Part shown: piece by piece, positions 1,851-52,059 of the stretch
Position numbering within the stretch: the first letter of the stretch is position 1
How the letters are laid out: every line of letters starts with the position of its first letter
Assembly (NCBI GenBank): GCA_036346225.1
Contig: JARFIW010000108.1
Location: 310,001-374,000 of the forward strand
Reading direction: 5' to 3'
DNA from: Platerodrilus igneus
Lineage: Eukaryota > Arthropoda > Insecta > Coleoptera > Lycidae
Length of the DNA stretch: 64,000 bases
Position numbers and translations under genes: made by a program
The notes under the pieces: generated by a model
The model's input: the letters and a program-made list of their open reading frames with translations, nothing else
Databases searched by the model: none
Told to the model about the DNA's origin: nothing

Positions 1851-1853
<3 letters not shown>

Positions 1854-3879
1854 CCGTGGTACTCGGGTAAAAGCCTCACCAACAAAAATATATTCGAAAA
1901 TTTTATTAAATTTTCAAAACTCGAAAATTGCACATAATAGAAAATTTTTCAAAAATTAAATAATTAAAAAAATATATATTTCTTACCCGTTTTCCTCTCT
2001 TCCTCGGTTGAATTGCTTTCTTCAACTGCTTCCGGCTAGCTCAGTTGGACCTCCTCTTGGATATCTAGATTCACTTTCATATTCTCTATCGTTCATGCAC
2101 ACTCTCAATAAAACTACAAAATACAACAAACATACAATCTTTTATTTATCACTATTTACAAATAAAATTCAATATTGTCCACATTTCAGTGATCACGTTA
2201 CATCTCAATAAATCCTATTTTGTAATGTCCTGTATTTTATTTTAAATTATCAAACACATAGAATGTACCCGGAGTAAATGGGCCCTGAATAATATCTTCT
2301 TTCTCATTCCTTCTTTATAATTTATTTTAAATTAGTATACTCTGGAGTATGGTGAGCTCATGATAACCCAGTTAATTATGAATAATGTATGCCCTTATAC
2401 TTCGCATACTCTTACAACAAACTAAAAAAAAAACAACCCATGTACTCTTTACAAAATTTAAATTCCTGATGGAACGTTAATAAGCTTTATATACACCTTC
2501 AGATTTCTATTTAATTACCATAATAAAGTTAGTTATACGTATTATGTTCAATACGCCAAAAATGCACAATAACTTCAAAATCTCTCTCATACGTCACCCA
2601 ATATTCATAGTTTATAACCACACAATTTCAAAGCGTTACCTGGAATTTCTAGAAGATCTCTGCTCTGTGGACGATGCCGTGTATTTACTTCTTTCTGGTC
2701 TGCAGGCCGCTTCTGGCTATTAGTAGAAGAACCCCATTTAAGTTGAACTGCTAGCGCTGCCTTCACGGTGTATCCAATTTCCAAATCCAAATTAATTATA
2801 CGTCTTTCACAATTATTTACTTTAATCTACGTTACTTAACGTCACGACACGAGCTTGTTAAAAAAATTATATATGATACCTCAATTAAAAAATGTAATCT
2901 TGGCACACAAGCCGCGTACAAATTATGAGGCTAACACCGTGCAATATAATTTAAAATAATTTTATTCTACTTACAAACTCGTGGTAGCTTTCATACGTAG
3001 TCTGAAGCGATCGAAATATTAAGGGCTTTCATTATATTTTCGAAAAGTATTTATACAGTTTAGGCTGCCACCTCCTGGCCACATTCACCCGAAATTCCTC
3101 ATCTACAACAACGCGTTCTTAAAATTTTGAGCTCAACCGATTTCTAAGTCCGCGAATTTCAGCGCACCGTTCCAATCTTTTCTGAAAATTAATATACACT
3201 ATGCTCGTATTTTCTCATGTCCAACTAACAATATCGACCAATCGTCTATCCACTGACGTTCTACAAATCCCGCCTATCCCACGCTGTCCCTTGCTTATGC
3301 GTTTTCTACGTCTCTTTCTAACCTGGTTTGAGTGGTAGAAAATCGATATTCCTGTCCATCTGCTATCTAACCCCACGTGGAGACCCTACGTGCTTTAAAT
3401 AACAGTTCATTAGCGTTTAATGGGAAAACATCCGACCGTTTACCCGATATTTATTTGTTATCTACAAAAATAAGTAGAAGCTGACATTTACAAAACCTGC
3501 AGGTGTTCAATTTTAACGAACGTTTTAAATAACATTTCTACGAGTTGGATTTCAGCGTATTTCAACCCCGCCGATATATTTGTTTGTTAGCAACGCGTTT
3601 CACCTTGGTATTATTGATGTTTACACGATTTTATGCATATTATACGTAAATGACCGTTTAATTAAACTCAATTAAATTAATAAATTAATGTCATTGGCTT
3701 CTACCATGTAATTTCTTTGCACCTACTAAATTTTAATCATTATTTGTAAAATTTTGTTAATACCTGTTACTTAAAAATGAACTAACTGGAATAAATTTCG
3801 CCCGTAATTTCTGGTAGTTTCCTTTATACAGGGTGTTTTGAAATTGCTTCATTTATATTTACTTTTAACCCTTTAAAAC

Positions 3880-3887
<8 letters not shown>
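1851..3887 (-). mobile_element. Long-LTR unit A (solo LTR, minus strand)
   Basis: A dispersed ~2-kb unit. Read on the minus strand it begins TATAGTGGTTTTAAAGGG at 3887 next to (TA)n and ends ACCACGGCA at 1851 next to (TA)n. It is clearly homologous to D (16190-18228) over its whole length. Visible in order: a CCCTGTATA box near the start; TATA box at about 3047-3056; first exon with donor TTT|GTAAGT near 2974; second exon 2640-2790 with donor CAG|GTAACG; a block around 2339-2371 shared with D, E and F; AATAAA signal with downstream T/G-rich sequence; and a last GGGTAAGA donor near 1985. TG-like start, CA end and TATA-to-poly(A) order fit an LTR with a long R region. The starting G is mutated to A. 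Confidence 0.65.
2640..2790 (-). other. Candidate coding exon inside unit A
   Basis: On the minus strand an ATG opens a 50-codon frame beginning MDLEIGYTVKAALAVQLKW and ending at a clean splice donor (CCAG|GTAACG). The homologous stretch in unit D (17271-17410) also starts with ATG and keeps GYT.EALA.QLKW, with several of the base differences falling at third codon positions (GGA/GGT, CTT/CTG, GCA/GCG). This suggests that the exon once coded for protein. I do not recognise the family. In D it is broken by a stop, and in F and G it has decayed. Confidence 0.4.
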
Positions 3888-8642: not shown

Positions 8643-11600
8643 ACACTCACGTGTTTATGAACATACCCTGCCACTTGCAGATGTATTTCATTTTATTGTA
8701 TCTTGCTTGCCGCCTATTCCCTTTGGGGATTGTTCGTACAATTTTTCTTGAGCTCTTCTATACTTTCTATCAAATCTCCACATACAAAGTCACTTCTATC
8801 AAGCCCAACCCCTTTGTTCTTTTCGTGCGTATCTCTACATTTTGATGTTTTCAGGAAATGAGTTCTATATAATTTCTACTTATCGTCCTCCCATTGTTAA
8901 TCGTATTTTATTACGGTCACCGTCTGCTTAATACAATGTATCGAGTTTACTTTATGCTATTTCACCCTTCTCACTCTTTTCAGTCTTTTACTATGAATCC
9001 TATAACTTCCGTATTCAGTGCTGAACATCTTTTTTAATACTTTGTGGCAATTGCAACAATGTCTGTGATTTTCCTTTATATTAATTCAAACTGTTTATTA
9101 ACAACTATGTCATATTGCACGGAATTTATTAAACCAACGTCCTAACGCTCATATTTGGTGTGCATATTCATGAATGCACTGTTATTTCCCTTATAATTCT
9201 GAAAGCATTCTGAATAACATGACACACTTTCACTATAAAATTTCATTGTTATAATATAATTTGTTTGTTTATGTTCTTGTGGTTTAAAACAATTTACAAC
9301 TCGTTATTTAAGTTCCATTATGTATTTTACAGAAATAAAATGATCATCTTTCGTGTTGTCAGTTTAATTAGAATATAAATATAGATTGAATTGCAAGTCT
9401 ATTTTACAGGAAAATTAAAATTATACAAAGTGATTCAATAAGAAGTTATTCCATTCAAGATTAAATATTATTTCTTTCATTCTAAATTAATGTTAACATA
9501 ATGCGTTGCGTTACAATTTTCAATGCTCGGTGGTTTATTATGATTACATATTCAGAACACAAAGTATATTTACTATAAATTTGGCAATTTATACATTTCT
9601 TTACTACCAATAATTAAAAAACAAAACATTTGTTAGATTTTAGTGAATATCCAACAAAAACCGCTTGCGTTTTAATCAATAAAATGTAAAGTTAATTATT
9701 ACAAAGATGGCTTTTAATTGTTTCAGATGACTTTAACCTACGTTATCAAGAATTAGACGTGCCACCTCAGCAACACTTCATATGGTCAACTGAAAGCCCT
9801 ATTAAAATATTTTCAATTAAGAAGTTGCTTGCTCCGTAAAGGTATGTCTGAAGTATGTTTGCCATATTTATGAACAAGAAATTATTCTCATGTTGTGTAT
9901 TTAACAAACGTTCCTGATTATACTTTTTAAATATAAAAACGCCAGTATGGTATTTTTAATACTTTAGTTGATTTGTCGTATACTTATTTATCATCGACAT
10001 GTTGTGTAAAAGAAAGAATGGGCAAAAAATATCAAATTGTATTGCAGAATTGTTAAATGTATATCAATAGTTTTTCAATAAATGCAGTAGTGGCCTACAA
10101 AACGTTTCTAAATGTTTCTTCGAACTTTGAAAATAAAAATTGTTATGGTATTCTTATGCAGACAAGAAAGAAAGCAACAAAGTATCCCATACATCGAATA
10201 CCGCAATAAAACAGGGACAGAATGGTAGAATCGAACTCCAAAAGAATTAGAATTCAGACTAGCTCAAAAACGTCGTAGAGTCGGGTGGGTGATATAAAAA
10301 GAAAAATTTGGAAATCTCGGCAAAAAGTTATATTATCAACTTACAGTTCCAAAAGAATACTTGCAAAAGTCAAAAATACATTTATATAATCGTTCGTTAT
10401 AACGTTGTAACATTTTTATTTTTCAGTCGTAATTTAATTGCATTGAATTACAAAAATAATGCGCTAAGCGTGCATTGTTCCTTAGGGATCTAATTATATT
10501 AATATATCTGTGTCGCATAAAGCTATTTGCAAGTACATCTCTATTTGATTGTTTCTTGTTCGCCCCTCAGACGGCGCGATCGCTCAGCTCTGGTTTCAAC
10601 AAACAATCGGCCGCCTGCAACAGCAGTGTTAAGATGTATTTTCGGCTGGAGGCTGGCAACCTTTGCATCGACTATTAATCGTTGGGATATCTTTTAATAA
10701 CGGTTGGTAAAGTATATATTATACGAATTAATGTAATTTGAGGTAATTTATTTAGCGCGTCCTGTAGAACGCGACCTGTAGAACGCGACCTGTAGAATGC
10801 GACAAAATATAATTCGACAATGTAGAATGCAACGATAAAGAATGGAACAAATATAATTCGTCATCTAGGATCCAAAGTATTACCGTTATTTAGGAACAGT
10901 TGATTTGAAATTCGCCTCAAGAAATTTGTCAGATAAGAAATTATGGAAGATAATTTGGATGCAGTCGTTTCAAATTAGAATGTATGGTAATTTTGCTTGA
11001 AGAACGGAAATCCCGTCTCAATTTGTTGTGAAGCGGCTAATGCAGTTTTTGGTTCGTAATTAGTTGTAAGATTTTTAAAGTTTAGAACACATAAACTTGC
11101 TTTTATGTTTAGTACACGTAAATTGTGTAAATTTCAATTAATTGTTGAGCTGGTTTTACAAGTTGTAAAACGAAATTTTGTCGAATTAGCTTTCTAAAAT
11201 AACATGCTTTGTTCCATATGAATCTTCGATAAGTTCAACGTGTATCTTCGACGTCATATTTTCCTGTTTTGCACAGTTGACAGATGTTGTCTTGCCTATT
11301 TTTGTGATCAGCTTTATCTATACATAGATTATTAAACGTGAATATGAAAGTTCAAATTCTCATTATGTTAGGTTCTAGTAATTTGTTATCCACCTGAAAA
11401 GATCTGCCCAGATTAGAATTTAATTCACTGTGTTATGCTTACAAATCATTATCACTTTAATTTGTATAACAAGTTCATGTTTAAAGTAAAGTTGGTTGAT
11501 TAATGAAACAAAATAAGGAAAGTTAAGACTTTAACTTTGATGTAGTTGATTATGACAATTTTTTGTTACAAGTTCCGATATTTTAAAAGAGTTTTTTTTA

Positions 11601-13592: not shown

Positions 13593-14209
13593 TGTTATAC
13601 GTCCGCTGTTCTAGTCTAAGGTATAACCGTTAAAGTCCCGCGCGTGATTGATAAGAGCCACTACAACAGTTGGCAACATAATAAACACGTACATAATATT
13701 GCGCAACAAGATATTACGTCAGAATTGCGTCTCAAATTTGGATCACATACAAAAGTAGAAGATAAAATGTACTCCCGTAAAATGTGGAGCTTTTCACAAC
13801 CTTGCGGTTATTCCTTTCCATTGATCTCGTTGTTGGACGTGGGTCGGCCTTTGCCCCTCGTCGAAACCAGATTAATTTGTCTTCCCTCTTCTTTTGTAGC
13901 GGTACGATAAAGGATACAGGTATAGGTACGATAATATGGTACGATAAAGGCAACCTACATTTTGAAAGAGAAGATAAAAAGAGGCACAGATCAACCTCAC
14001 TGTTCGACGTTTCGTTGACTAGTCCTCACGTGTCGGAAAATTCCACTTACTTTCCCACTCCGCGTCTGCGCATTCTCTGGCGCCGACGCAACTGTCTAAA
14101 GTGACGGAAATGCACGCACAAGTCTATTTTTAAAATATTTGCTCGATTTCAGTCACATATTTAAACTAAAAACAGAAATGTTTACATAGCCGATTTTCGG
14201 CATGTAACA
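13593..14209 (-). mobile_element. Solo LTR (TGTTA...TAACA) with GGTC target duplication
   Basis: The minus strand begins TGTTACATGCCGAAAATC at 14209 and ends CGTATAACA at 13593. The plus strand has GGTC immediately before (13589-13592) and after (14210-14213), a 4-bp target duplication usual for Ty3/Gypsy insertions. The start is homologous to the solo LTR at 60927-61614 (TGTTACGTGCCGAAATAAG). The element is richer in GC and CpG than its surroundings. Open frames across it (for example 13784-14104) are incidental. The internal region has been lost, presumably by LTR-LTR recombination. Confidence 0.8.
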
Positions 14210-14213
14210 GGTC

Positions 14214-15149
14214 AAGACGATTATCCTTTAGCTATTATTGTTGAGTGGTATCCAAGTGAAATATAAAAATATAACATTTAACTTGTGTTTAAGAAGCAGG
14301 CTAGGGGTAACTAGTTAAAGTGAAGGTTATTGTATTATTAATTCCGGGTTGTAAATCTTTTCTTTAGCTTCAATCCAACGGCGAATTTAATAGTAATACT
14401 TTTTGAAATTATATGGTGGATAGGGGGCAAGCACCACACCACTTCAGCATTGGTAGAATAAATTGATATCCCGACTTAAGATCTCGTGTTATTTAATTTA
14501 GGTGCATCTTTATTTTCCATTACCTTAAAATTTGGTTGGAATGCGGTAAAGTGGTGATAAGGACAACTTTGGGATTTGGGAAAGTGAACAAATACGCATC
14601 AATATCGCCATCGACACATTTTGGGCACGCCAAGGTGAAGGATTGTAAGCTCAAGCAGGTGGTGGTTTAAGTGTGATAATCACAGATATTTATGTTATTA
14701 ATCTAAGCCAACCGAAGTTGTTCAATCGCGTTCAAATACCTGTTGACATTTTACAACCATAAACTTTCTAACCTCCAAATATACCTTTTTGCATTTACGT
14801 ATGTATGTAAACCAACTTAGTTTATTTTGTAAATTAATTTTATTTGTTAATTCTTGTTAAGTGTCAGATTTGTCAAATTGTGCATTTATGAAGTTGTAGG
14901 TAGAGCACCTAGAATCACTTGAGTTTTTCTTTTTTAAAGTAAACCAACCATGTAACCTTTTCAATTTGGTATTTATTATTACATTTATTCTGAATATATT
15001 TGTGTGTCGTATGGTATTTAATCTCATATATTAAATCGGTTAATCAATTACTGGCAGTCGATTAAATAATTTTTGACTAAATTAAATAATACGGAACTAA
15101 TTAAATCGTATGCATTTTCATGATGATAAAGATTTTGGATTGTGAACTA
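14214..15149. other. Gene-free stretch
   Basis: AT-rich sequence without recognisable genes or repeats, leading into a (TA)n tract at 15150-15183. Confidence 0.5.
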
Positions 15150-15188
<39 letters not shown>

Positions 15189-15234
15189 TAAAAAGGAATT
15201 ATTGGCAAGTGACTCAAATCAGCCACGAGGGCAT

Positions 15235-15277
15235 CCTGTCGATGCGTTACGCCCTAATTGGGGCTCATCAGGACAGG
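15235..15277 (-). ncRNA. Hammerhead ribozyme, array copy 1
   Basis: Minus strand: helix I CCTGTC/GACAGG, core CTGATGA, helix II GCCC/GGGC with a six-base loop, then GTAAC in place of GAAAC, short helix III, and ATC cleavage triplet. The A-to-T change in the GAAA box (plus-strand base 15249) probably disables cleavage. Confidence 0.75.
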
Positions 15278-15533
15278 AGTAGCAAAGTTGTAAAATTTAA
15301 CACAGACACCTTATGGGAAGTACAGCATCACCTAGCTCACAATTTGTGTCTTCGTGTCGTTTCACCTGACATCACAAGTTTTAACAACAGTCGACACGGA
15401 GGAGATCCGGCTCAACTGCCTTTTTCCATAGCCAAAAGTTATATTTAAGAGAAAAGTCGGTTTAATGAGTCTTAAATTAAACAAAGTAAAAAGGAATTAT
15501 TGGCAAGTGACTCAAATTCAGCCACGAGGGCAT

Positions 15534-15576
15534 CCTGTTGACGCGTTTCGCCCTAATTGGGGCTCATCAGAACAGG
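15534..15576 (-). ncRNA. Hammerhead ribozyme, array copy 2 (core intact)
   Basis: Minus strand: helix I CCTGTT/AACAGG, core CTGATGA, helix II GCCC/GGGC with loop CAATTA, core GAAA, a palindromic ACGCGT that can serve as a very short helix III or pair between two copies, and cleavage triplet GTC. All conserved core bases of a type I hammerhead are present. Predicted cleavage lies between plus-strand positions 15540 and 15539. The near-absent helix III is like that of minimal hammerheads in Penelope-like elements and retrozymes, which act better as dimers. Confidence 0.85.
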
Positions 15577-15822
15577 AGTAGCAAAGTTGTAAAATTTAAC
15601 ACAGACACCTTATGGGAAGTACAGCATCACCTAGCTCACAATTTGTGTCTTCGTGTCGTTTCACCTGACATCGCAAGTTTTAACAACCGTCGACACGGAT
15701 GAGATCCGGCTCAACTGCCTTTTTCCATAGCCAAAAGTTATATTTAAGAGAAAAGTCGGTTGTGAGCTAGGTGATGCTGTACTTCCCATAAGGTGTCTGT
15801 TAAATTTTACAACTTTGCTACT

Positions 15823-15866
15823 CCTGTCCTGATGAGCCCCAATTAGGGCGATACGCGTTGACAGGA
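15823..15866 (+). ncRNA. Hammerhead ribozyme, inverted array copy
   Basis: Plus strand: CCTGTC helix I, CTGATGA core, GCCC/GGGC helix II, then GATAC instead of GAAAC, ACGCGT-like helix III, GTT cleavage triplet and GACAGG. One core substitution (A to T) makes activity doubtful. Confidence 0.75.
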
Positions 15867-16117
15867 TGCCCTCGTGGCTGAATTTGAGTCACTTGCCAAT
15901 AATTCCTTTTTACTTTGTTTAATTTAAGACTCATTAAACCGACTTTTCTCTTAAATATAACTTTTGGCTATGGAAAAAAGGCAGTTGAGCCGGATCTCCT
16001 CCGTGTCGACTGTTGTTAAAACTTGCGATGTCAGGTGAAACGACCGAAGACACAAACTTGCCAATAATTCCTTTTTACTTTGTTTAATTTAAGACTCATT
16101 AAACCGACTTTTCTCTT

Positions 16118-16190
<73 letters not shown>
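16118..16190. repeat. Compound (TA)n microsatellite
   Basis: (TA)n interrupted by GT steps at 16139-16140 and 16159-16162. It separates the hammerhead array from unit D. Confidence 0.95.
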
Positions 16191-16197
<7 letters not shown>

Positions 16198-18228
16198 GTT
16201 TTAAAAGATCAAAAATAAATATAAACAAAGCAATTTCAAAACACCCTGTATAAAGGAACAACCAGAAAGTACGTGCGGAAATTATATTAGTTAATTCATT
16301 TTTAAGTATCTGGTATTAACGAAATTTTATAAATAATTAATGAAATTTAAGTAGGTTTACAAAGAAATTAAATGGTAGAAGCCAATGCCATTAATTTATT
16401 AATTAATTTGAATTTAATTGAACGATTATAAGTTAAAAACCCGGTAATACCAAAGATGAGACGCGTTGCTAGCGTACAAATATATCAGGAGGGTTAAAAT
16501 ACGTGGAATATCCAACTCGGAGAAGTGTTATTTAAAATGTTACGATTGAACACCTGCGTATTTTTCTAAAGTTCAAGTTCTGCTTAAATTGTGTAGATAA
16601 CAAATGGTTACAGAGAATGTCGGATAAACCGTCGCTTATATTCATGCGAAATGCTAATGAGGGGGTTATTTAACGCACGCAGACGGTCCACGTGTGTAAA
16701 CAGCGCACAAACCAGGATATCGATTTTTCAACCACTCAGACTAGGTTAGACTGAGACGGAGAAATCGTATAAGCATGCGACCACAATAGTAGAGGAGGGA
16801 TTTGAGAAACGTCATTAAGTCTACGATTGGTCGATATGTTAGTTTAACTTGGCATAGACGCGAGGATAGTGTAGCGTGATTTTCTTGAAACTTTATAACG
16901 AGGTATTGAAATTCGCAGATTTGAAATTGGGGTTGAGTGTAAAATTGTGGGAATGTGTGTGGTGTGCAGTGGATTTCGGATAACTGGGGGCCTGGAGAGG
17001 TTACAGTCGAAAGACATAAATACTCTAGAGAACTAGGACTCGCTCTCTTGTCTTTTAACTGCGTGCCTTATTATTTCGATCGTCCCGAAAGCACATATGA
17101 AAGTTAAACATGAGTTGTAAGTATTAACAAATAATTTAAAGTGTATTGATTAGTGATAACCTCTAAATTAATTAAAACGCGGTTAATGTGCCGAGATTAT
17201 CTTATTGAGGTATCACCTATAGTTTTAATCAACTCCTGTCGGGACATTAAGTAACGTAAATTACTGTGAAATGGAATTTGGTTACACCGAGGAGGCGTTG
17301 GCGGATCAACTGAAATGGAAGTCGTTTAGTAATTGAGAGAAACATCCTGCCGATCAGATAGAAAATTACATGGCATCATCTACAGGGCGAAGATCTTCTA
17401 GAATTTCCAGGTAGCGATTTAACATTGTGATTTCTATAAACTGTAAATATTGGGGTGGCGTATGAGAGTGTTTTTCAAGGTAGTGTGAATTATTTGAGTA
17501 TTGAACAGAATTTGTGTAAATAACTTTATTACGGTATTCAACTAGATATTGAAGGTGTTTAGAAAGCTTCTAAACGTTCCATCAGAACGTGAAATTTTGT
17601 GAAGAGTACATGGCTTTGTTTTTTTTTAGTTTTAGAGTATGCAAAGTACAAGGGCATACATTAATTGGGTTATTATGAACTCACCATATCCCACAGTTTA
17701 CGTAGAGTATTAAAATAAATAAATAAATTATAATGAAGGAATTTTAGAGAAGGTATTATTCAAGATCCATTTACTCCGAGTACATTTTATGTGTTTGATG
17801 ATTTAAAAATTAAATACAGGACATTACAAAGTAAAATTTACTGAAGTGTAACGTGAACAATAAAATAATAATGAATTGCATTTGTAAATATGAATAAATA
17901 AAAGATTGTATGTTTGTTGTATTTTGTGGTTTTATTGGGCGTATGCGTGAATGATAGGATTTATGAATGAATATAGCTATCCAAAAGGAGGTCCTAATGA
18001 TCTAGCCGGAAGCAGTTGAAGAAGGCCATTCAACCGAGGAAGAGAGGAAAACGGGTAAGCAATTTTTTTTTGACTTATTTAAATTTTTGGAAATTTTTCT
18101 ATTTTCGAATTTGAAAATTTAAAGTAATTTTCGAAAATAATTTTGTTGGTGAGGATTTTACCCGAGTACCACGGCATAATTTTGACGCCCAATTCGTGAG
18201 GCTCGATTCTTATAAGGTTACACAGTAA
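16190..18228 (+). mobile_element. Long-LTR unit D (plus strand)
   Basis: Full-length homologue of unit A. Starts TATAGTGGTTTTAAAAG, has CACCCTGTATAAAGGAAC near 16240, TATA-like CATAAATAC at 17015-17023, donor GAGTT|GTAAGT at 17117, and second exon 17271-17410 with donor CCAG|GTAGCG. The GGGTTATTATGAACTCACC block is at 17667-17685 and the AATAAATAAAAG poly(A) signal near 17892. Third donor GG|GTAAGC is at 18055. The tail reads ACCACGGCA (an LTR end), one PBS-like module, then a second LTR-like end CACAGTA against a short (TA)n. Confidence 0.65.
17271..17410 (+). other. Candidate coding exon inside unit D (broken)
   Basis: Begins ATG and reads MEFGYTEEALADQLKW before a stop eight codons later. 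It aligns with the exon in unit A and ends at the same splice donor. Relative to A, whole codons are missing near the start and in the ALA run, and several differences are synonymous. Function unknown. Confidence 0.4.
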
Positions 18229-22954: not shown

Positions 22955-22987
<33 letters not shown>

Positions 22988-22990
<3 letters not shown>

Positions 22991-24949
22991 AGTGGATTTA
23001 AATGGTTAAATTTGGGTATAAACAATGCAATTTCAAACACCCTGTATAGAGGAAACAACCATAATTTACGTGCGAAATTTATTTCATGTATTTAATTTAT
23101 AGTAACAAATAATACCATAATTTTATAATTAAGGGATTAAAAATTCGTAGGTTCGTAAAGAAAACAAACTGTATAAGCCAATAGAAATTATTAATTAATT
23201 TAATTCAGTTTAATTCAAAGGGTTATAACGTCAAAAACGCATAAGAGCGTGAAAAATCGATAATTACAAGGCGAAACGCTTTACTAACAAACAAACACGT
23301 CGAATATAGGAAATACCTTGAAACGCAAACTCCTAGAAATGTTATTTTAAAACGATCGTTAATTGAACACCTGCATGTTTTGAAAGCTCAACTTCTATGT
23401 ATTTTTGGAGCATAACAAGCAAGTTTCGAAGGATATTGGTCAAACGGCAGTCGCAAAGCACGTATACAACTCCACGTGGGGTAGATATCACGCGGACAGT
23501 AATAGGTAATAGTTAGTAGTAATAGTTAGAAGGAAACATATAATATGCACAAGAGAGGAATAGAGTTAATACAGGCGGGGTTTTAAGACGTCATTGAAAG
23601 GTATCATTGATCTAAATAGTTAGTTTTACAACAGACGAACACGGGACAGATGAATGCTGTTTTTTCGGAAAATAGCATAGCGACGAGCTAAATTTCAAGG
23701 AGTTTGAAAACGGTTATACAAAATTTGAAGAAAGAGTTATTTTGCAATTAGGATTTCGGGTAAAGTGTGGCCGAGAGGGGCCTGGCTTATAATATAAATA
23801 AGCTAGCGAAATTGATAGCTTTCTCTTTGACTTCTGTAATTTGCATCGCTTACGACGTACAGAACTCTACTAACGAGCTTGTAAGTATTAAAATTTATAA
23901 ATTAAATAGTACAGTGTTAAATTGTTGGCCTCATAGTTTGAAACGCGAATAGTGTCGAGTTTATATTTAACTAAGGTACAACAAATATTTTAACAAGCTC
24001 GTAACGTAAATTAAATTATGCAATAATAAAAAAGTGTAATATACTTGGATTTGGATATTGAGATGTATCTGGAATGAGTAGCATGCAGCGCAACGTAGAT
24101 GGTGTTCATCTATAAATAGCTGGAGGCGGCAAGCAGCGCATAATCACTAGACCGAGGGTTCAGGAACATAATACCTCGTCAACAGAGATGGAATATTCAA
24201 GTTTTTCCAGGTAACGCATTAGAATTTGCTGTTTTTTTCAAACTATGGAAATTATTTGTGATGTGTGAGAGTGAGCTTTGATGGTATTTTTCGTTATTTT
24301 GCGTATTGAAAAGAATACGTATAACTAACTTTTATTATGGTATTTGAATATAAATCTAAAGGTGTACGTAAAGCTTATTAACGTTCCTCATGAATTTAAA
24401 TTTTTATTGTTAAGAGTACATGGGGTTTTTTGTGTTTGTAGTAAGGGTATGCAAAGTAAAAAGCATATATTAAAAAAAATTGGGTTATCATGAGCTCACC
24501 ATACTCCAGAGTGTAATAATTAGAAAAAATATAAATAAGGTATTATTTAGGGCCCATTTACTCCTGTTACATTAAATGAGTTTGATATTTCAATTTAAAA
24601 ACGAGGACTTTACAAAGATATCATTAATTGAGGTGTAACTTGAGCACCGAAATGTACATAATCTTGAATTATTATTTGTAAATAGTGGTTAATAAATATT
24701 GTATGATTGTTGTATTATTTTGTGGTTTTATTGAGAGTGTGCGTGAACCGTAAAGATTGTGATAGTAAATCTAGGTATCCAGGAGGAGGCCCAACTGAGC
24801 TAACTTGGGAGCGGTTGAAGAAATCAAAGTTGATGGAAGCAGAATCTGGGTAAGAAATTTTTTTTTGAAAATTTTTCTTTTTGTGAAATTTTCGATTTTT
24901 ATAAATTGTAAAGTTTCGAATCTACCGAGATCCTAAAGAGGGGCCACGG

Positions 24950-24952
<3 letters not shown>
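22988..24952 (+). mobile_element. Long-LTR unit F (plus strand)
   Basis: Canonical TG...CA unit: TGTAGTGGATTT at the start and GGGGCCACGGCA at the end, both against (TA)n. CACCCTGTATAGAGG near 23038; GTGTGGCCGAGAGGGG box at 23765-23780; TATA AATATAAATA at 23791-23800; donor AGCTT|GTAAGT at 23881; exon-2 donor TCCAG|GTAACG near 24211. The GGGTTATCATGAGCTCACC block is at 24482-24500, with a poly(A) signal AATAAATATTG near 24690 and third donor at 24849. No PBS-like module in the tail. The exon equivalent to that of A has lost its frame. Confidence 0.7.
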
Positions 24953-24990: not shown

Positions 24991-26640
24991 TTGTAGTGTT
25001 TTTAAAGGGTTAAATTTAAGTATAAACAAGGCAATTTCAAACACCGTGTATAGAGGAAACAACCAGAATTTACGTGCGAAATTTACTTCATTTAGTGAAT
25101 TTAAAGTAACAAGTATTAACAAAATTTTACAAGTAGTGATTAAAATTTAGTTAGGTTCGTAAAGAAAATAAATTGTAGAAGCCAATGCAAATGATTAATT
25201 AATTTAATTGAGTTTAGTTGAAAGGGTTATTACGTTTAATACGCATAAGAGCTTGAAAAATCGATAATACCAAGGTGAAACGCCTTGCTAACAAACGAAC
25301 AACCGTTGAATATAAAATACCTTTAAACGTAAAACTCCTAGAAATGTTGTTTTAAAAACGATCGTTAATTGAACACCTGCAGGTTTTAGAAATGTCATGT
25401 TCCTCTTATTTGTGTAGATAAAAGACAGAATTCGAGGTATATCGGGTAAACGGTCGGACGGTTCGTATAAATGCTAACTAAAAGTTTCCTTAAAGCGCAG
25501 AAGGAATGGACAATCAATGAAATGCTTTGGAAAGAGTCAGGCATAATAACAGTTCACTTCAAAACGCACGTATTAAGTCCACATGGGTTAGATAGAACGC
25601 GGACAGCAATATCGATTTTCTACCACTCAAACAAGGTTAGAAGGAAACAGAATATGCATAAGAGATGAATAGCGTTAATACAGGCGGGGTTTCAAGACGT
25701 CACTGAATATCTCATTGGTCTATATAGTTAGTAGTACAACAGACAAACACGGGAAAATTTGAATGCGGGCTTTTCGGAAAATATAATAACGAGTTAAATT
25801 TCGAAGATTTCGAAAACGGTTGAACCAAAATTTTAAGAAGCATTATTTTAAATGAAGGATTTCGCGTGAAGAGTGGCCGAGAGGTGGCACTTCGAATTAT
25901 ATAAATACTCTAAAAGAATTAGCATGGCTCTCTTTTAACTTCGCTCTGAGTATTTTCATCGCTTCAGACTACGTACAGAAATTTACCACGAGCTTGTAAG
26001 TATATAAAATTTTTTAAATTAAATAGTACAGTGTTGGTCTCATAATTTGAACGCGGATAGTGACGAGTCTAAATTTTATTGAGGTGCAACATATATTTTT
26101 TTAACAAGCTCGTGAAGTGACGTAATGTAACGTAAATTAAATTAAGCAATTATAAAAGAAGTGTAATATACTTGGATTTGGATGCATCGTGAATGCAGAG
26201 CAGGCAGCACAACTTATAGGGTGTTTATCTACAAATAGCTGGCGGCGGCGAGCAGAGCAGAACCACGTAACCGAGAGCGAAACAACTTAACGGCATCGTC
26301 AACGGAGTAGGGATATTCAAGAAATTCCAGGTAACGCTTTAGAATTTGTTGTTTGTATAAACTATGAAAATTATTGTGATGTGTGAGAGTGAACTATTAA
26401 GGTATTTTGCATTATTTGGCGTATTAAAAATAATACGCATAACTAACTTTTATTATGGTATTTAGATTTAAATCTAAATTCGTGAGGCTCGATTTCTTAA
26501 AGGTAACACAACTTTTTATGACGGCCCAACGTTGGGGCTTGAATGATTTTTAGGGAGTTCCAGAAATTGATCCCAGTAACACGGCAATTTTATGACGCCC
26601 AATTCTTGAGGGTCGATTATTTATAGGTTAACACAACAAT
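24991..26640 (+). mobile_element. Long-LTR unit G (plus strand, internally deleted)
   Basis: Closely related to F from its start (TGTAGTGTTTTT) through GAGTGGCCGAGAGGTGG (25870-25886), TATA TATATAAATAC (25897-25907), donor AGCTT|GTAAGT at 25996 and exon-2 donor CCAG|GTAACG near 26330. At about 26480, after AAATCTAAA, it jumps straight to tail modules. The conserved block, poly(A) signal and third exon are therefore missing. The tail carries three PBS-like modules, the most of any copy together with H. Confidence 0.65.
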
Positions 26641-30968: not shown

Positions 30969-31091
30969 ATTGGTGCCCAACGTGCGCCACAAATTTACGG
31001 CATTTTATTAGCACCCAACGTGGACTCAAGAGTTTATGTTGGGTGCCAATAAAATGCCGTGAATTTATGTGGCGCCACGTTGGGCACCAAT
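30969..31091. repeat. 123-bp near-perfect palindrome made of PBS-like motifs
   Basis: Left arm from ATTGGTGCCCAACGTG and right arm ending CACGTTGGGCACCAAT are reverse complements over about 60 bp each, with a few mismatches and almost no loop. Each arm contains two copies of the lysine-PBS-like core GCCCAACGTG / CACCCAACGTGG. The open frame on the minus strand at 30838-31143 simply reads through this structure. Confidence 0.85.
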
Positions 31092-45984: not shown

Positions 45985-46503
45985 TCAACGATGAAATTCT
46001 AAAGCTCTCGCAACAATTTATTTTCAGCTAATCGCTAACGGTACAAATACTAACTTCTAAAAACTACCATGCTATTTTCTTAATTACTTACTATTGAGGC
46101 ACTATAATTAACTACTTAAACACTAATTACTAATTTTAATCGTTCACTACAGTAATTTATATCACATAGTGCAATTTATATAAGCAGTAATTTAAATCAC
46201 ATGTAGTACTACTCTATTTCATACCTCGACTTTGAAATCTTTAAATTAGAACTCAGATTGTAATTAAAACTTCAATTACAACTGAACTTCAAGTGCACTA
46301 GTTATTTCGAGAACATCCCGAAATTATCCAAATAACAATCTCGAGAGCTCTTATTGTATGGGTAACAATTATCTTATAACCTATCAATCAAGACCATCTA
46401 ATGATCTCGTGCCGCAGGGCTTATCAATCAACTTTTGTGTATACACGCCCTCCTTACATTCCGATGTGTTATTCTGGTCAAATGTAAACTAAACGGCGCT
46501 ACA
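45985..46503 (-). repeat. 3' LTR of the Ty3/Gypsy element
   Basis: On the minus strand it begins TGTAGCGCCGTTTAG at 46503 and runs to about 45985 (ATTTCATCGTTGA). It aligns along its length with 52655-53210, with many substitutions. The divergence from its partner indicates an old or recombined pair. Confidence 0.8.
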
Positions 46504-46709
46504 TTGCACCTTTGTAAACCTGTTCTGTTCCAGAACACTTTGAGACCCCTTTGTTGGAAGTCCCTGTAGAGATAAGGATAGTAGAAACCATTTCTGCAGT
46601 TCCCATGTTGATAGAAATAACAATGAACACTTTATAGCAGACACCCTACCATTTGGACTGCACACCAAAATTTTGACCCTATTTTCTGGAACACTACCTC
46701 CAGCTTATT

Positions 46710-47043
46710 TCATCTCCTGTCCAATTCATCGTGCCCACCACCGATCTTGGTTATGACCAACTTCTTGTCTTCAAATTTGATCATCTGGTCCTTGAGGTTT
46801 ACTAACGCCTTCCACAAATTCTGATGATAATCTGGTTTTCCAGAAGGCTGTTGCTTAGTCACCAGGTACCAGACGTTACGATGTCGGTCCTTTATGTGTA
46901 TGGCTTTTCCAACCTCTGGTTGTTGTCGGCAAAGTTCATCCCGATCACAAAATTCATTTTTAAATACCCGGGCAAATTGTCGGAACATATCGGGGTCCGC
47001 TGTTGCACAATGTTCCAGGGAGTATTCCGATGGAACTTCGAAT
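46710..47043 (-). pseudogene. Macro (ADP-ribose-binding) domain at the end of pol
   Basis: The minus strand reads FRVTEEIHGD, then after a frameshift VPSEYSLEHCATADPDMFR, VGKAIHIKD, VWYLVTKQ and LVITKIGGGHDELD. This follows the macro-domain order: GDLF..., SLAHCVAAD, then YLVTK, then the KIGCGLD-type loop. Macro domains bind or hydrolyse ADP-ribose. I know of such domains in some insect Ty3/Gypsy-type polyproteins. Here it follows the integrase C-terminus, as in the second, partial copy at 50770-51040. The usual GRGIA loop is changed, and the domain is frameshifted. Confidence 0.7.
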
Positions 47044-47114
47044 GATCACCATGAATCTCTTCCGTAACCCTAAATCCGGCTTTACCTGTGCGGCTGTACA
47101 GAGATATGTACCAA

Positions 47115-47448
47115 TTATATCTCGGTTAGATTTTCGTTGATCCTCACGAGTATAACTGTTTGTTCATTGTATAGCCAGATGCGGTCGCCCTCTTGAAATC
47201 CAAACTCCTGCGCCCTTATGTCATATTTGGCCGTAATTCGATCACTTGCGATCTGATAATTTCCTAACATTACCATGGATGTCATGCATCTTGCGCTTGA
47301 GCTTATCGATGCAGTTCTCGCCGACGATGTCATCTCCGGGCTTACACTCAAACTCATGATCACATGGTAGACGTATCTCACGTTCCAGCATAGCGCATGC
47401 AGGTGTCTGTCCAGTGCTCTCATGAAGCGAAGACCGATAGGTCAACAA
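47115..47448 (-). pseudogene. Integrase C-terminal region (pol, copy 1)
   Basis: Minus-strand frames include YRSSLHESTGQTPA, the HESTG.TPA motif after the integrase catalytic core, and FQEGDRIWLYN, the beginning of the small C-terminal domain. The two lie in different frames, showing a frameshift near 47300. Confidence 0.75.
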
Positions 47449-48005
47449 AAGTAGATGTAAATATTGGTCCCAGTCTTTCTGATGTTATTCGTGTCTTTCT
47501 CATCCCCAACACCCGTCAAACTTCTTGAAATAACACCCACTCAAAATTTCTGCCGTGATCGGTGTGCAATTTCATAAAAACTCCAAAACGGCAGAACAGT
47601 TCCTCTACCAGCACGTCAACGACGGTTTGGTATTGCATACGCTTCGGTCCACTTCGTAAAATAGTCCAAGGCTACCAATATGTACTTATTCCCGGAGACT
47701 GTCTGAGGGTGTGCACCGGCATTATCGATTGCCACTCTCTTAAAAGGGCTTCCTACGCTGTATTACCTCATTGAAGCTTTACGGTTCCCCATTCGTTCAC
47801 ACAGCTGACACTTGTGGTACCACGCTTTAACATCATACTTGCAGACTACCCAATAAAATCTTGCTCGGACCTTTTCTAGAGTTTTCTTAATTCCAAAATG
47901 TCCTTTCGAGGTTCTATTATGTAGATGTCTTAAAACCACCTCCGACACCCGACTTATAGGAACCATCGCTTCAAGCGTACTCACGGATCCGTCTCCATTC
48001 TCCAA
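47449..48005 (-). pseudogene. Integrase zinc-binding and catalytic core (pol)
   Basis: On the minus strand 48005-47763 gives VLRHLHN...GHFGIKKTLEKV...YHKCQLCERM, an HHCC zinc-binding domain with both histidines and both cysteines. From 47760 down, with frame changes, the core is seen as AIDNAG, SGNKYILVALDYFTKW (first two catalytic Asp regions) and scattered later blocks. The catalytic part carries stops. Confidence 0.75.
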
Positions 48006-48239
48006 GGATCACACCAAGATCACATTTTTATACCTTCAAGGAATCCCATTGTACCCAGTACATCTTCAGGGTGCTACTCAACGTACTAATATCCTTTCAA
48101 GATGGGCGTTTTCCTCTGGCTTTCAAACCCAGAATGACACCTAGGTCTTTATCATTATCTTGTTCGGTTTGCAGCTGTAGAGGATGCTAATCCTCATTGA
48201 TCACAGTAGTCCGATCAAACACATCATTCTTCTTATCTA

Positions 48240-48581
48240 ACCGTGCGCTTAGCTTGAATCTCTGGGGCGAGGTCGATTTGAAAGTGTACTTGCATTACGA
48301 TGACTGGAACCAGTACGATGTTCCGTGCCGATGTCATACTACTGCAGCCTTTCTATCCATCTGGCGACTTGGCCTTTCGTGTTTCTTATACTGTAATAGC
48401 CGCTTTAAAGTGGCGTGGTTAGTTTTCTCCTGAAATTTTCTTTATTAGAGGTACTTATAAAAGTGTTCACCGGATTTCACCACAGTCAATAGTTCCCTTC
48501 TTGTAACGCAATAATTCCATTTCGGTATCGAAAGCACCTTTGTAAAGTAACTGGTGACTCTTTTGTCCACAAATGCATTAG
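48240..48581 (-). pseudogene. RNase H domain (pol)
   Basis: Minus-strand reading shows WNYCVTRRELLTVVK and HATLKRLLQYK, matching the NYC.TRRELLAVV and DHAALRWLL blocks of Ty3/Gypsy RNase H. It lies between the transcriptase connection region and integrase, as expected. Stop codons interrupt it. Confidence 0.7.
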
Positions 48582-49493
48582 CTATTGGAATGCAATTTTG
48601 TAGTCTTCATCCAAAACGTATTCGCGCCCTTCTTCTGTTAACTTGGTCAAGAGCTTGGCAGTATTTGCAAACCCGGATATGGATCTTCTGTAATTTATGC
48701 ACAATTCCTGAAAGCTGCCTAACTGACGTTTGTCTTTTGGACATCGGCCATTCTTATACCACTTTAACTTTTTCCGAGTCTGGTCTAACTCCGTTACGGA
48801 GAAACGAAGCTCCCTAGTTATTTCACTTCTACGCATAGCAGGTGACACTTCTTTGGACTCTGTTTCAGATTGGCTTCTCTGAGTCTGGGATACACTTCTT
48901 CCAAATTTCCCAAATGATACCCATATGACTTTCGAATAACAATCACGTCATTCAAATACACAAGGTACGTTTTGCAAAATAGCCCGCGCAATATGTTATC
49001 CAATAAACGCTTGAAGGTGGCAGGAGCGTCGCAGAGCCCAAATGGCATAACTGAAAATTGCCATAGGTCGGTACCAATAGTGAAAGCAGTTTTTTTCCCG
49101 ATCTGTGAGTTCTATATTCACTTGCCAGCAGCCACTCTTTAAATCCAAGGTTGAGAACGATTGCGACCCTGAAAGCGTATCTAGGGTATCGTCAATTCTT
49201 GGAAGTGGGTAGCTATCCTTCTTGGTCACGTTATTCAATCGTCTGTGGCCCACATAAGATCTTGTTAATCCGTTTTTCTTTTTAACAACAACAGCAGGCG
49301 ATATCCAGGAGTTATCAGAGTGCTCAATCACTCCTTTTCTCATATCTCTAATCGCTTTCTCGGCCTCCTCGCGTTTAGTCAATGGGAGTCTCCCTGGCTG
49401 CTGCTTTTTTGGGCGAGCATCTCCTACATCGATTGCAGTCACTCCTAATTGATCGCCGTCGACCGCGAACACATCCGAGTACCGTCGGATCAA
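48582..49493 (-). pseudogene. Ty3/Gypsy reverse transcriptase (pol)
   Basis: From 49493: a KREEAEKAIRDM block, WISPAVVVKKKNG, RRLNNVTKKDSYPLPRIDDTLD, FSTLDLKSGCWQV (first catalytic Asp), then after a frameshift MPFGLCDAPATF, VYLNDVIVI, and the thumb and connection LGSFQELCINYRR...FANTAKLLTKLTEE. Family order and spacing are complete. The YxDD box reads YLND, so one of the metal-binding aspartates is replaced. Three frames are needed to follow it. Confidence 0.85.
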
Positions 49494-49518
49494 GTTTTTA
49501 AGTTCTGCCAGTTGTTAT

Positions 49519-50063
49519 TCATGATGCTGGTACGGTTTTGTCAACTGCTTTAATAACTGCGGAGCACCCATTAGTGGGTAGTTTTTTATTAACACTGCCA
49601 CACCCCTCCACGCCGTCAACCAAAGAACACCTCTCAACCGTTGCATTATTTTTCAACGCGATATTGTAGTTATTGAGGTATAAATTCCTAACAGGTACAC
49701 CATCCATCGCTTTGATCAAAGCCTTTTAAACAAGCACGCCTTCTCTGAGGGATTCGTCAGTAATCGGTGGAATAGGGCTCACTAAGCCCTCCCGGGAAGA
49801 ATCATGCAAACCTCCCATTGACACATTTTCTGTCCTTCCAGGTAGGATAACGTAGTCCGTCGGACAAACTCGCACAGAAACGTCGACTGCTTCTTAAACG
49901 GCACTTCCGCGTTCCCCACTCTCATGACATCCTCTTTCATATCTACATGGAATCCATACCTCGTGAAGATATACATTTCCAAGATAATTCCTTCGGTGAC
50001 GTTCGCTATTACTACCCGATGGTGAAATATTTTGCTCCCAACTCTGATTTTTACTTCGAACAT
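49519..50063 (-). pseudogene. Protease and linker region (pol)
   Basis: The minus strand 50063-49782 gives FEVKIRVGSKIFHHRVVIANV, GIILEMYIFTRYGFHVDMKE and VMRVGNAEVPF. This is the second half of a retropepsin-like domain (I.G.D...YGF) followed by the linker to the transcriptase. The active-site DTG segment is lost in the deletion that joins gag capsid to this part near 50090. 49719-49519 continues the linker in another frame. Confidence 0.65.
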
Positions 50064-50082
50064 TGCGTGTGTTTAAAGTTCC

Positions 50083-50345
50083 TCACCAACTATGGTTCGA
50101 TGATGTACCGTCACGCACTACATCTGGATTAACAATTGTCCCCGTGACTCTGGTATAACGAAAAACTTCACAGTCTGCCGTTAATACTACGTCGCTTCTT
50201 TGGCCATGGTCTGATATGGTCTGCAAAATATTCAAGGCTTCACCTCGTAACGCGAAAATCAACATGGTGTCCCTTTCACTATCGTTCCAGTCATTAGCTT
50301 TCGCGACAGCCTTGAATTGCTTAAAATATGCCTGCCAAGGTTACT
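50083..50345 (-). pseudogene. gag capsid fragment, copy 1
   Basis: Minus strand YFKQFKAVAKANDWNDSERD then MLIFALRGEALNILQTI, a Ty3/Gypsy capsid N-terminal block. After ISDHGQRSD the frame continues directly into sequence upstream of the protease, so the capsid C-terminus and nucleocapsid are deleted. Confidence 0.7.
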
Positions 50346-50479
50346 TTCGATCAAATCTTGACGGTTTTACTCTGAAGCTTGACCTTATTTCGCATTCCCG
50401 AGATTCTTACATTCTGGGGCGTGCTGTTGTATCACAGTCACTGAGGACTCTGGTGTCTGCACTGTTGGAGAATTAATCC

Positions 50480-51040
50480 GTTCTTCCTTCCTCAGTACCT
50501 CTTCTTCCATTTTTTTCGAGTTCTCTAACAATATTTGTGAAAATCTCGCTTCTAGTACTTGCGTATTTTCTAATTAAGCATTTAAAAACTTTGTTTCTAA
50601 TTTCTGCAAACCGCGGGAAATGTGGCTTCCGGCGTTTGCAGGCTCTCCAAAAGTTTCGCTTCGAGATTTTTCAGCGGATTTAGCATTTTTTTTATAACCT
50701 CCTTTTTCAATTGTTTAACGACTTTCAGATTTTGATATAATTTTTCTGTAAAACGTGTTACTTTCTTTTGGTTTTCTGCTTTACCAGAAGGCTCTTGTTT
50801 AGTCATCAAGTAGTAGGCGTCCCTTGTCGATCTTTTAGCCTTATGGACTTTTCAATCTTCAGTTATTGTCACCGAAGTTGTTCCAGACCACCAGATTTAT
50901 TTTTAAACGCACGAGCAAGTCCTCGGGGCATATCAAGGTTTGCCGCTATACAATGTGCCAGAGAATATTCCGGTGGCACATCGAATAGATGTCCTTGAAT
51001 CTCTTCCGTGACACTAAATCTCGCTTTGCCTGTGCTGCTG
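50480..51040 (-). pseudogene. Chimera: macro-domain start fused to gag coiled coil
   Basis: The minus strand 51040-50790 reads FSVTEEIQGHLFDVPPEYSL, AHCIAANLDMPRGLARAFKN and YLMTKQEPSGKA, the first half of a macro domain. Without LTR or leader it becomes KVTRFTEKLYQNLKVVKQLK, the charged coiled coil of gag, which is also present at 52060-52380. The junction lies at about 50770-50790. The macro C-terminal half, a 3' LTR and a gag start have been lost between the two copies. Confidence 0.7.
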
Positions 51041-51079
51041 TACAATCATGAACCAATCATTGCTCGGTCCAGACGTTGG

Positions 51080-51440
51080 TTCATCTTCTGAGCGTAACTG
51101 TTCGTTTCACTGCTTGCCATCCTCCGGTATTACAGGCGTCATCACCATCGTGGGGTGCTAATCGATTAACGTGCACCATTATTGTTCTTCTTGGAAGCTT
51201 ACGAATCCGATACGCCACGCCATTCATATTTTTTACAACTTTGTGCGGTCCCTCCCAATGTCTTTGTAACTTTGGTAATAGTTCACGCCTCTCTCTGGTG
51301 TTGTATAGCCAGACGCAGTCGCCTTCTAGAAAGTCAGACTTCTTTTTGGGTTTATTACATTTGTAATGTATATGCCCAAACTCGTCTAAACTCGCTACAA
51401 TTCCAGAGTCGGTGTTCCTTCTTCTTTGATGTTCATAATG
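51080..51440 (-). pseudogene. Integrase C-terminal region, copy 2
   Basis: The minus strand reads SDFLEGDCVWLYN, LLPKLQRHWEGPHKVV, MNGVAYRIRK and TIMVHVNRLAPH. This is the small SH3-like C-terminal domain of Ty3/Gypsy integrase (GDLVWLYNP...KLQ..WEGPY.VV) and the tail before the macro domain. It is less damaged than copy 1. Confidence 0.75.
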
Positions 51441-51519
51441 TACTCGTCCAATGATCTCCTCTATGCTCTTCTTGTCCCTGCTCCTTTACGGAGCATCTCA
51501 CCTTACTACTACCATGATG

Positions 51520-51965
51520 CGAAGCTTGCTTTGCCGCGTCTAATTTCTAGGGTCTTTGGTCGAGCTAGCCGTGTTGCTTGCTGGATCTCTCCATCGGGTA
51601 TCGCATCAACAATAGTATGTACTGTTAGCTGTTCTAGGAAGCTATTCGGCGCCGTTGGGTAGGTTAATCTCACCAAACGTGCAAATTTTTGTTGACCTTT
51701 TGATAACAGTTCTTCACTTGAGCGTGGTACACTTGTTACATATGAATTTCGCCGTATCTCATTTCCAACCTTGATGTTAATACTCCGTAGCTTCTTTGGT
51801 CATGGTCTGGTACGGTCCACAAAATATTCAAGGTTTCACCTCGTAACGCGAAAATCAACGCGGTGTCCCTTTCACTATCGTTCTAATCGTTAGCTCCCGC
51901 GACAGCCTTGAATTGCTTAAAATATGTCTGGCAAAGTGACTTTCCATCAACTCTGGGCTGTTTTA
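51520..51965 (-). pseudogene. gag capsid, copy 2
   Basis: The minus strand reads YFKQFKAVAGAND, NDSERDTALIFALRGETLNI, then RLVRLTYPTAPNSF, LEQLTVHTIVDAIPDGEIQQ and ATRLARPKTLE, the N- and C-terminal halves of a Ty3/Gypsy capsid. It runs directly into integrase C-terminal sequence, so nucleocapsid, protease, RT and RNase H are deleted in this copy. Confidence 0.7.
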
Positions 51966-52059
51966 CTCGGAAGCTTGACGTTAATTCACATTTCCGACAT
52001 TCTTACAATCTGGGGCGTGCTGTTGTATCACCGTCATTGAGGGCTCTGGTGCTTGCACT

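Follow-up and report, generated by a model that had tools for sequence, protein, structure and literature searches.

A 933-bp insertion inside a (TA)n tract of the Platerodrilus igneus genome (positions 15185 to 16117 of the window, the 64,000-nt stretch of DNA analyzed here) contains a ~299-nt unit that bears a type I hammerhead ribozyme and occurs three times, twice in tandem and once inverted. Its sequence features support the view that the array is an animal-type non-LTR retrozyme, and we consider it likely that the array represents one insertion of a nonautonomous, noncoding retrozyme made by Penelope-like element (PLE) machinery. This is the simplest account because the arrays of the family share the target type, the geometry, and the tail of PLE insertions. 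An earlier note on this DNA had reported hammerheads in a ~298-bp repeat, first tandem and then inverted, a description borne out by the three unit copies and the 43-nt hammerhead match in each. The array was also where that note had placed it, except that each end (15186 and 16118) was one base off. The inverted arrangement had been recorded there but left unused, though it is the most informative part.

The array is flanked by (TA)17 on the left (15151 to 15184), the putative insertion target, and by a (TA)-rich tract on the right (16118 to 16194) that terminates a ~2-kb repeat; other copies of this repeat in the window have comparable (TA)n ends. Overall, (TA) tracts account for 0.8% of the window, and the GC content of the 2 kb around the array is 0.364. 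Copies 1 and 2 have minus-strand ribozymes and together span 15185 to 15760, with a 299-nt period and 97% matches. Copy 1 (15185 to 15482) has its RNA 3′ end at 15185, at a putative start site that we call site A (ending in TTTTTACTTT), while copy 2 (15483 to 15760; 278 nt) is truncated at its 5′ end, at a head-to-head junction (15759 to 15762). Here the opposite orientations meet at 15760, with the RNA 5′ ends facing and a 2-nt TT overlap. Copy 3 follows on the plus strand (15760 to 16055) and ends in a second, internal jump (16055/16056). The remaining 62 nt (16056 to 16117) are a plus-strand fragment of the unit, made up of a part that reaches site A (16056 to 16081) and a 36-nt “tail” from site A to a second site, B (16082 to 16117), where the RNA 3′ end reads TTTTCTCTT. 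The array therefore ends at site A on the left and at site B on the right.

Several other repeats were observed in the window. Copies of the ~2-kb repeat lie at 1852 to 3883, 16195 to 18176, 22987 to 24952, and 24992 to 26478, with (TA)n at one or both ends; they are about 71 to 84% alike in the longer pairings, and the retrozyme array and a PLE remnant both abut such (TA)n tracts. A short tandem repeat with a 14-bp unit (CGCGACCTGTAGAA; 3.4 copies) is found at 10756 to 10803, and a near-palindromic hairpin at 30969 to 31091, perhaps a MITE, scores 40.7 bits to Rfam mir-1271 (gathering score, 80.5). On the minus strand at ~46000 to 52000, matches to RVT_1 and Integrase_p58_C mark degraded pieces of retrotransposons, probably gypsy-like.

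The Rfam model Hammerhead_1 matches 43 nt in each copy, with 31.9 bits for copy 2 (15534 to 15576, minus strand), 25.4 bits for copy 3 (15823 to 15865, plus strand), and 22.8 bits for copy 1 (15235 to 15277, minus strand); the whole-window E values are 5.4 × 10−4, 0.075, and 0.54, respectively. All three score under the gathering score of 34, and a default Rfam scan reports none. The covariance-model check suggested in the earlier note thus gave a match at the expected place in copy 2, though below that threshold. A strict type I descriptor had copy 2 as its sole match in the window and found none in 150 Markov-1 random windows. The core bases (CTGATGA, GAAA, and GTC), helix I (6 bp), helix II (4 bp), and the palindrome ACGCGT that had been described for copy 2 were all found, with a predicted cut at 15540/15539. 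The cores of the other two are damaged: GAAA reads GTAA in copy 1 and GATA in copy 3, and the cleavage triplet of copy 3 is GTT. Because of the GAAA substitutions, only copy 2 among the three looks competent.

Helix III of this retrozyme consists of a single A-U pair around palindromic CGCG. The newt and axolotl ribozyme HHR_Amex1, as described in PMC7229834, likewise has a one-bp helix III closed by a palindromic tetraloop (here, A-CGCG-U) and cuts poorly as a monomer but much better as a dimer; the host and the unit differ. The helix III found here thus resembles this weak amphibian type and not the more stable invertebrate one (PMC7229834). Since helix III is so short and its loop palindromic, cutting probably needs two hammerheads acting together. 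When the circular unit was folded, the minimum free energy was −69.1 kcal/mol, hardly more stable than 100 Markov shuffles (z = −0.8), and helices I and II formed in this fold but helix III did not. Five additional pairs outside helix I (GCTAC/GTGGC) are invariant in the three copies and hence offer neither support nor contradiction. Two further structural candidates were rejected. A compensatory change in helix I (one C-G to U-A among the three copies) was reached in 185 of 500 shuffles and is no evidence, and a stem-loop in the tail, with a 7-bp stem when folded in isolation, is lost in a diverged subfamily (L003 alignment) and was dropped.

Metazoan non-LTR retrozymes are described as tandem units of 150 to 450 bp with a type I hammerhead, present in many dispersed arrays (PMC7229834). 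The resemblance to animal retrozymes proposed in the earlier note is upheld on each of these points, as the family studied here has a type I hammerhead with a conserved core and a tandem, noncoding unit of ~299 nt, lacks a long ORF, and occurs in many dispersed copies. The sense frames of the unit are interrupted by stops, and all three have stops between the hammerhead and site B. The ORF list of the window has no RT and GIY-YIG ORF between pLTRs in the array. The coral, mussel, and axolotl elements (PMC7229834) are further alike in forming dimers to long arrays, in showing neither LTR-like structure nor ORF, in their many copies, and in sharing their genomes with PLEs. They differ in that two preferred 3′ ends, a 36-nt tail, and head-to-head twins are shown in the present genome; the words “inverted,” “tail,” and “head-to-head” are absent from the main text of PMC7229834, and no tails or head-to-head twins of a retrozyme appear in the titles and abstract openings surveyed. 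A use of one start site per side as regular as that described below is likewise absent, for retrozymes and PLEs, from the texts consulted. The pDo500 satellite of Dolichopoda crickets (PMC2837043) is similar in carrying a hammerhead with a conserved core in a short repeated unit, but that unit is about 500 nt long, and its hammerhead is significantly more conserved than the rest, which is not the case here (P = 0.81; see below).

To describe the family, we used the host assembly (2.71 Gb; 1723 contigs), which holds at least 195 matches to the unit, a lower bound from scoring 40 of 1136 first-look candidates. We examined 30 loci from the genome search and 32 fetched stretches, with overlaps dropped or merged; as these were the best-scoring places, the sample leans towards copies resembling those in the window. 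Near-full copies were defined as reaching from rotated-unit positions 1 to 10 to positions 290 to 299 with at least 85% identity. This filter excluded copies that were shorter or more diverged, including copies 1 and 3 of the window. The resulting 151 near-full copies comprise 141 distinct sequences. The hammerhead core is intact in 139 of the 151, and one identical hammerhead is common to 91. A covariance-model match (below the gathering score) and genomic copies with a conserved core, whose lack the earlier note had named as grounds for giving up its reading, were therefore both found. The monomer, which the note had not recognized, was found in no other collection searched (by exact patterns only): a 20-mer of the unit gave no hits in a viral-contig collection, and a degenerate hammerhead pattern was found in no stretch of a genome-contig collection. 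One viral contig (IMGVR_UViG_3300047174_000068; L001) has the degenerate pattern at 14202 to 14282, with a near-identical core and helix II, and this stretch matches Rfam Hammerhead_HH9 at 27 bits (gathering score, 52).

Among the window copies, 6 of the 43 hammerhead positions vary, versus 3 substitution sites in the other 255 (P = 4 × 10−4 by Fisher's test), an excess that has a P value of 0.005 once four indels outside the hammerhead are added. Two of the six hammerhead sites (of nine substitution sites in all, with the hammerhead making up 43 of ~298 nt) adjoin the cleavage/ligation site. Selection for dead ribozymes was considered for this cluster and rejected, as the 151 near-full copies show no hammerhead excess (mean minor frequency, 0.98% in the hammerhead and 1.46% in the remainder; P = 0.81). 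None of the 151 carries the GAAA changes seen in copies 1 and 3 of the window. Because the genomic copies show neither the excess nor those changes, the cluster appears to be local. CpG decay is an unlikely source, with a window CpG observed/expected ratio of 1.10. In three full copies of the diverged subfamily L003, the hammerhead has 0, 0, and 1 changes in 43 nt and the outside has 27, 27, and 28 changes in 256 nt (P = 0.02 by Fisher's test for 0 of 43 versus 27 of 256).

Two long arrays stand out in the genome. C858 (L032 to L034; G000:C858:19078000-19101500) spans about 21 kb in four blocks of the same strand, with up to 33 hits per block. In C254 (L035 to L036), one block carries 40 hits in about 11 kb, among them opposite-strand copies at one end. 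One of the two is interrupted by a long G run, unlike the short arrays in (TA)n. These long arrays were perhaps expanded by recombination, and, together with the fact that the C858 blocks end outside (TA)n, they are what would be seen if the family were ordinary satellite DNA, spread and amplified by recombination, with an incidental hammerhead. We give this explanation almost no credence for the family as a whole, since most of the 42 clusters described below are short, lie dispersed, and have their ends at preferred, RNA-like 3′ positions within (TA)n, and the hammerhead core is kept. Divergence is 1.3 to 1.45% within arrays and 1.9% between arrays, and 87 of 116 private variants occur in single copies. 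This pattern was also considered with regard to a monomeric circle as the template, and it neither supports nor excludes a circular template.

We then compared the ends of the arrays in 42 clusters from 38 sources, including the window. The outer ends comprise 54 RNA 3′ ends and 19 5′ ends. Of the outward 3′ ends, 45 lie in two narrow zones 36 nt apart, with 24 in the A zone and 21 in the B zone. In rotated-unit coordinates, the A zone has 18 ends exactly at site A (178), 2 at 176, and 4 at 183, two of the last extending a few unit bases beyond A; the 21 ends of the B zone are at 221, which is site B (214) plus flanking TATA matching the unit by chance. The other nine 3′ ends lie elsewhere, some of them being block edges inside the long C858 array, and the 19 5′ ends are scattered over 18 positions. 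(TA)n is directly next to 41 of the 45 A and B ends (21/24 in the A zone and 20/21 in the B zone), 2 of the 9 other 3′ ends, and 6 of the 19 5′ ends. The listed 3′ ends showed no poly-A, and (TA)n does not allow target-site duplications to be recognized. Sites A and B lie 57 and 93 nt, respectively, from the hammerhead cut.

For the junctions, the cluster set was modified by extending C333, C356, and C1253, merging C858 and C254, and adding three arrays, again giving 42 clusters. Opposite-strand junctions are head to head in 22 cases and tail to tail in 1 (binomial P = 6 × 10−6 versus 1:1). Twenty arrays have 3′ ends on both sides, and the final tally, made partly by eye, is 15 A/B, 1 A/A (L046), 0 B/B, and 4 unassigned (L045, C1253, L050, and L059). 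The script alone gave 14 A/B, 2 A/A, 3 with A and an unclassified end, and 1 with B and an unclassified end. Inspection by eye moved L050, whose right end passes B into non-(TA) DNA, and L059, whose left end is not site A, to the unassigned group, and took the right ends of L058 (..CTCTCTT) and L049 (..ATATACTT) to be B and A-like, respectively. The excess of A/B arrays is significant for 15 of 16 (P = 5 × 10−4) and also for 13 of 14, without the two additions made by eye (P = 0.0018). Arrays with a one-sided 3′ end have B in 9 cases, A in 7, and another end in 4, and two further clusters are truncated where the fetched stretch stops.

Inversions are likewise produced by twin priming and would also be expected if a LINE-type retrotransposon moved the retrozyme, with the opposite-strand copies resulting from L1-style twin priming. 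LINEs have been proposed as carriers beside PLEs (PMC7229834), and Nematostella hammerhead repeats are described with 15-bp LINE-like target duplications (PMC4918200). Nevertheless, LINE-type movement seems very unlikely for this family given the two preferred internal 3′ ends, the (TA)n targets, the absence of poly-A at the listed 3′ ends, and twins with both 3′ ends outward, one of type A and the other of type B.

PLE-type insertion, by comparison, has parallels for each of these features, namely, the (TA)n target, the 22 to 1 bias towards head-to-head junctions, and sites A and B 36 nt apart in 15 A/B twins. The PAc PLE protein cleaves both strands of AT-rich DNA and initiates reverse transcription at internal positions of its own RNA; the optional 30- to 40-bp PLE tail is the stretch between two RT start sites, with a hammerhead upstream (PMC11167929). 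Pen2a_Av is described with two direct pLTRs and one inverted pLTR, the head-to-head arrangement being the commonest, and with a 31-bp tail on one inverted pLTR (PMC3846280). The retrozyme thus resembles both PLEs in its AT-rich target, in its direct and inverted head-to-head copies, and in a one-sided tail that corresponds to the gap between two internal RT starts, which are putative in the retrozyme. It also resembles PAc in having the hammerhead some tens of nucleotides upstream of the RT starts: from the figures of PMC11167929, we derived a distance of 85 to 92 nt between the PAc hammerhead cut and the RT start, and the distances in the retrozyme are the 57 nt (A) and 93 nt (B) given above. 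The retrozyme array differs from these PLEs in having no RT/EN ORF and no similarity to the in-genome PLE 3′ regions compared.

PLE remnants are indeed present in this genome. At the beginning of the window, outside the array (1 to 1256; 1 to 303 on the minus strand and from about 315 on the plus strand), an RT-like frame with YVDD is followed downstream by a GIY-YIG match (885 to 1256; 23.1 bits, cutoff of 22.6). Neither Pfam nor NCBIfam gave an RT match for the RT-like piece, and its assignment to a PLE rests on the adjacent GIY-YIG domain and on motifs that we take to be of PLE type. The GIY-YIG piece has no relative in viral contigs, phages, or PDB sequences, and the predicted structures of two PLE pieces were uninformative (mean pLDDT values of 41 and 43). 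This remnant is itself head to head near 303, and its 3′ region runs into (TA)n at 1803 to 1851. PLE remnants also lie within ~0.6 kb of two other arrays: in L039, RT and EN pieces lie between 1101 and 2016 and the array is at 2532 to 2973, and in L044, an EN piece is at 1828 to 1995 and the array is at 2612 to 3721. The PLE 3′ regions of the window and L044 align, and each enters long (TA)n 113 to 114 nt past a GAAACGTC-like motif, which resembles the hammerhead half-site of PLEs; the window copy has an additional short (TA) tract ahead of the long one. The PLE 3′ regions compared gave no Rfam hammerhead match, and no clear shared sequence was found between the retrozyme and the 3′ regions of three PLE remnants. 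Because of this lack of clear shared sequence, the nearby PLEs need not be the partner of the retrozyme.

The same parallels could suggest that the unit serves as the pseudo-LTR (pLTR) of a PLE not yet sampled, in which case the arrays would be pLTRs, single or in tandem, whose ORF was lost or was never present, rather than an independent retrozyme. Direct and inverted copies, the tail, and a hammerhead upstream of the RT start are all as in PLE pLTRs. We regard this as unlikely, since the units in the clusters examined mostly abut head to tail with no intervening ORF, in blocks of up to 33 and 40 hits, and stops interrupt each of the three sense frames in the region from the hammerhead to site B. 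Furthermore, PLE hammerheads are called minimal in a review, being without helix III or loop-loop contacts (PMC7761336), whereas the retrozyme hammerhead fits Hammerhead_1 and has a short helix III, and the unit has no sequence relationship to the PLE 3′ regions of this genome that were compared.

Insertion of an independent retrozyme by PLE machinery, the reading that we prefer, could proceed as follows. Read-through transcripts would be cut by the hammerhead, after which a host ligase would circularize the RNA. Both strands of (TA)n DNA would then be cut by a PLE protein, which would initiate reverse transcription within the unit, using site A at one DNA end and site B at the other. Passing around the circle (or down a multimer) more than once, each enzyme could produce tandem units, and the two products would be joined at their 5′ ends. 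The 36-nt difference between A and B would correspond to the PLE “tail.”

Several observations speak against parts of this scheme. RT start did not differ between the top and bottom strands in vitro (PMC11167929), so by itself this result would not lead one to expect an A end paired with a B end. The PLE hammerhead was also dispensable for insertion in vitro (PMC11167929). The three PLE remnants without clear sequence shared with the retrozyme and the A/A twin array (L046) likewise count against PLE machinery. The unremarkable circular fold and a within-array divergence only slightly lower than that between arrays do not demonstrate a circular template.

PLEs were already a strong candidate for the mover of animal retrozymes, based on their co-occurrence, shared hammerheads, and tandem copies (PMC7229834, 2020). 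The ends and the twin structure described here would be traces of the mechanism, linking a retrozyme family to PLE-type integration, and sites A and B yield exact predictions for where cDNA synthesis begins. We see about even odds that animal retrozymes relate to PLEs as SINEs do to LINEs, keeping a PLE-like cis-module and being inserted by the PLE complex from both ends at once, from A at one end and B at the other. Our judgment is equally balanced on whether this module comprises the hammerhead, followed by two RT start sites within ~100 nt, and nothing else. A tail on one inverted copy is already known for PLEs; what would be new, if this is true, is a near-obligatory twin insertion with one of each site, obeyed by a retrozyme. 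If general, the one-A-one-B pattern informs how PLE complexes engage two DNA ends.
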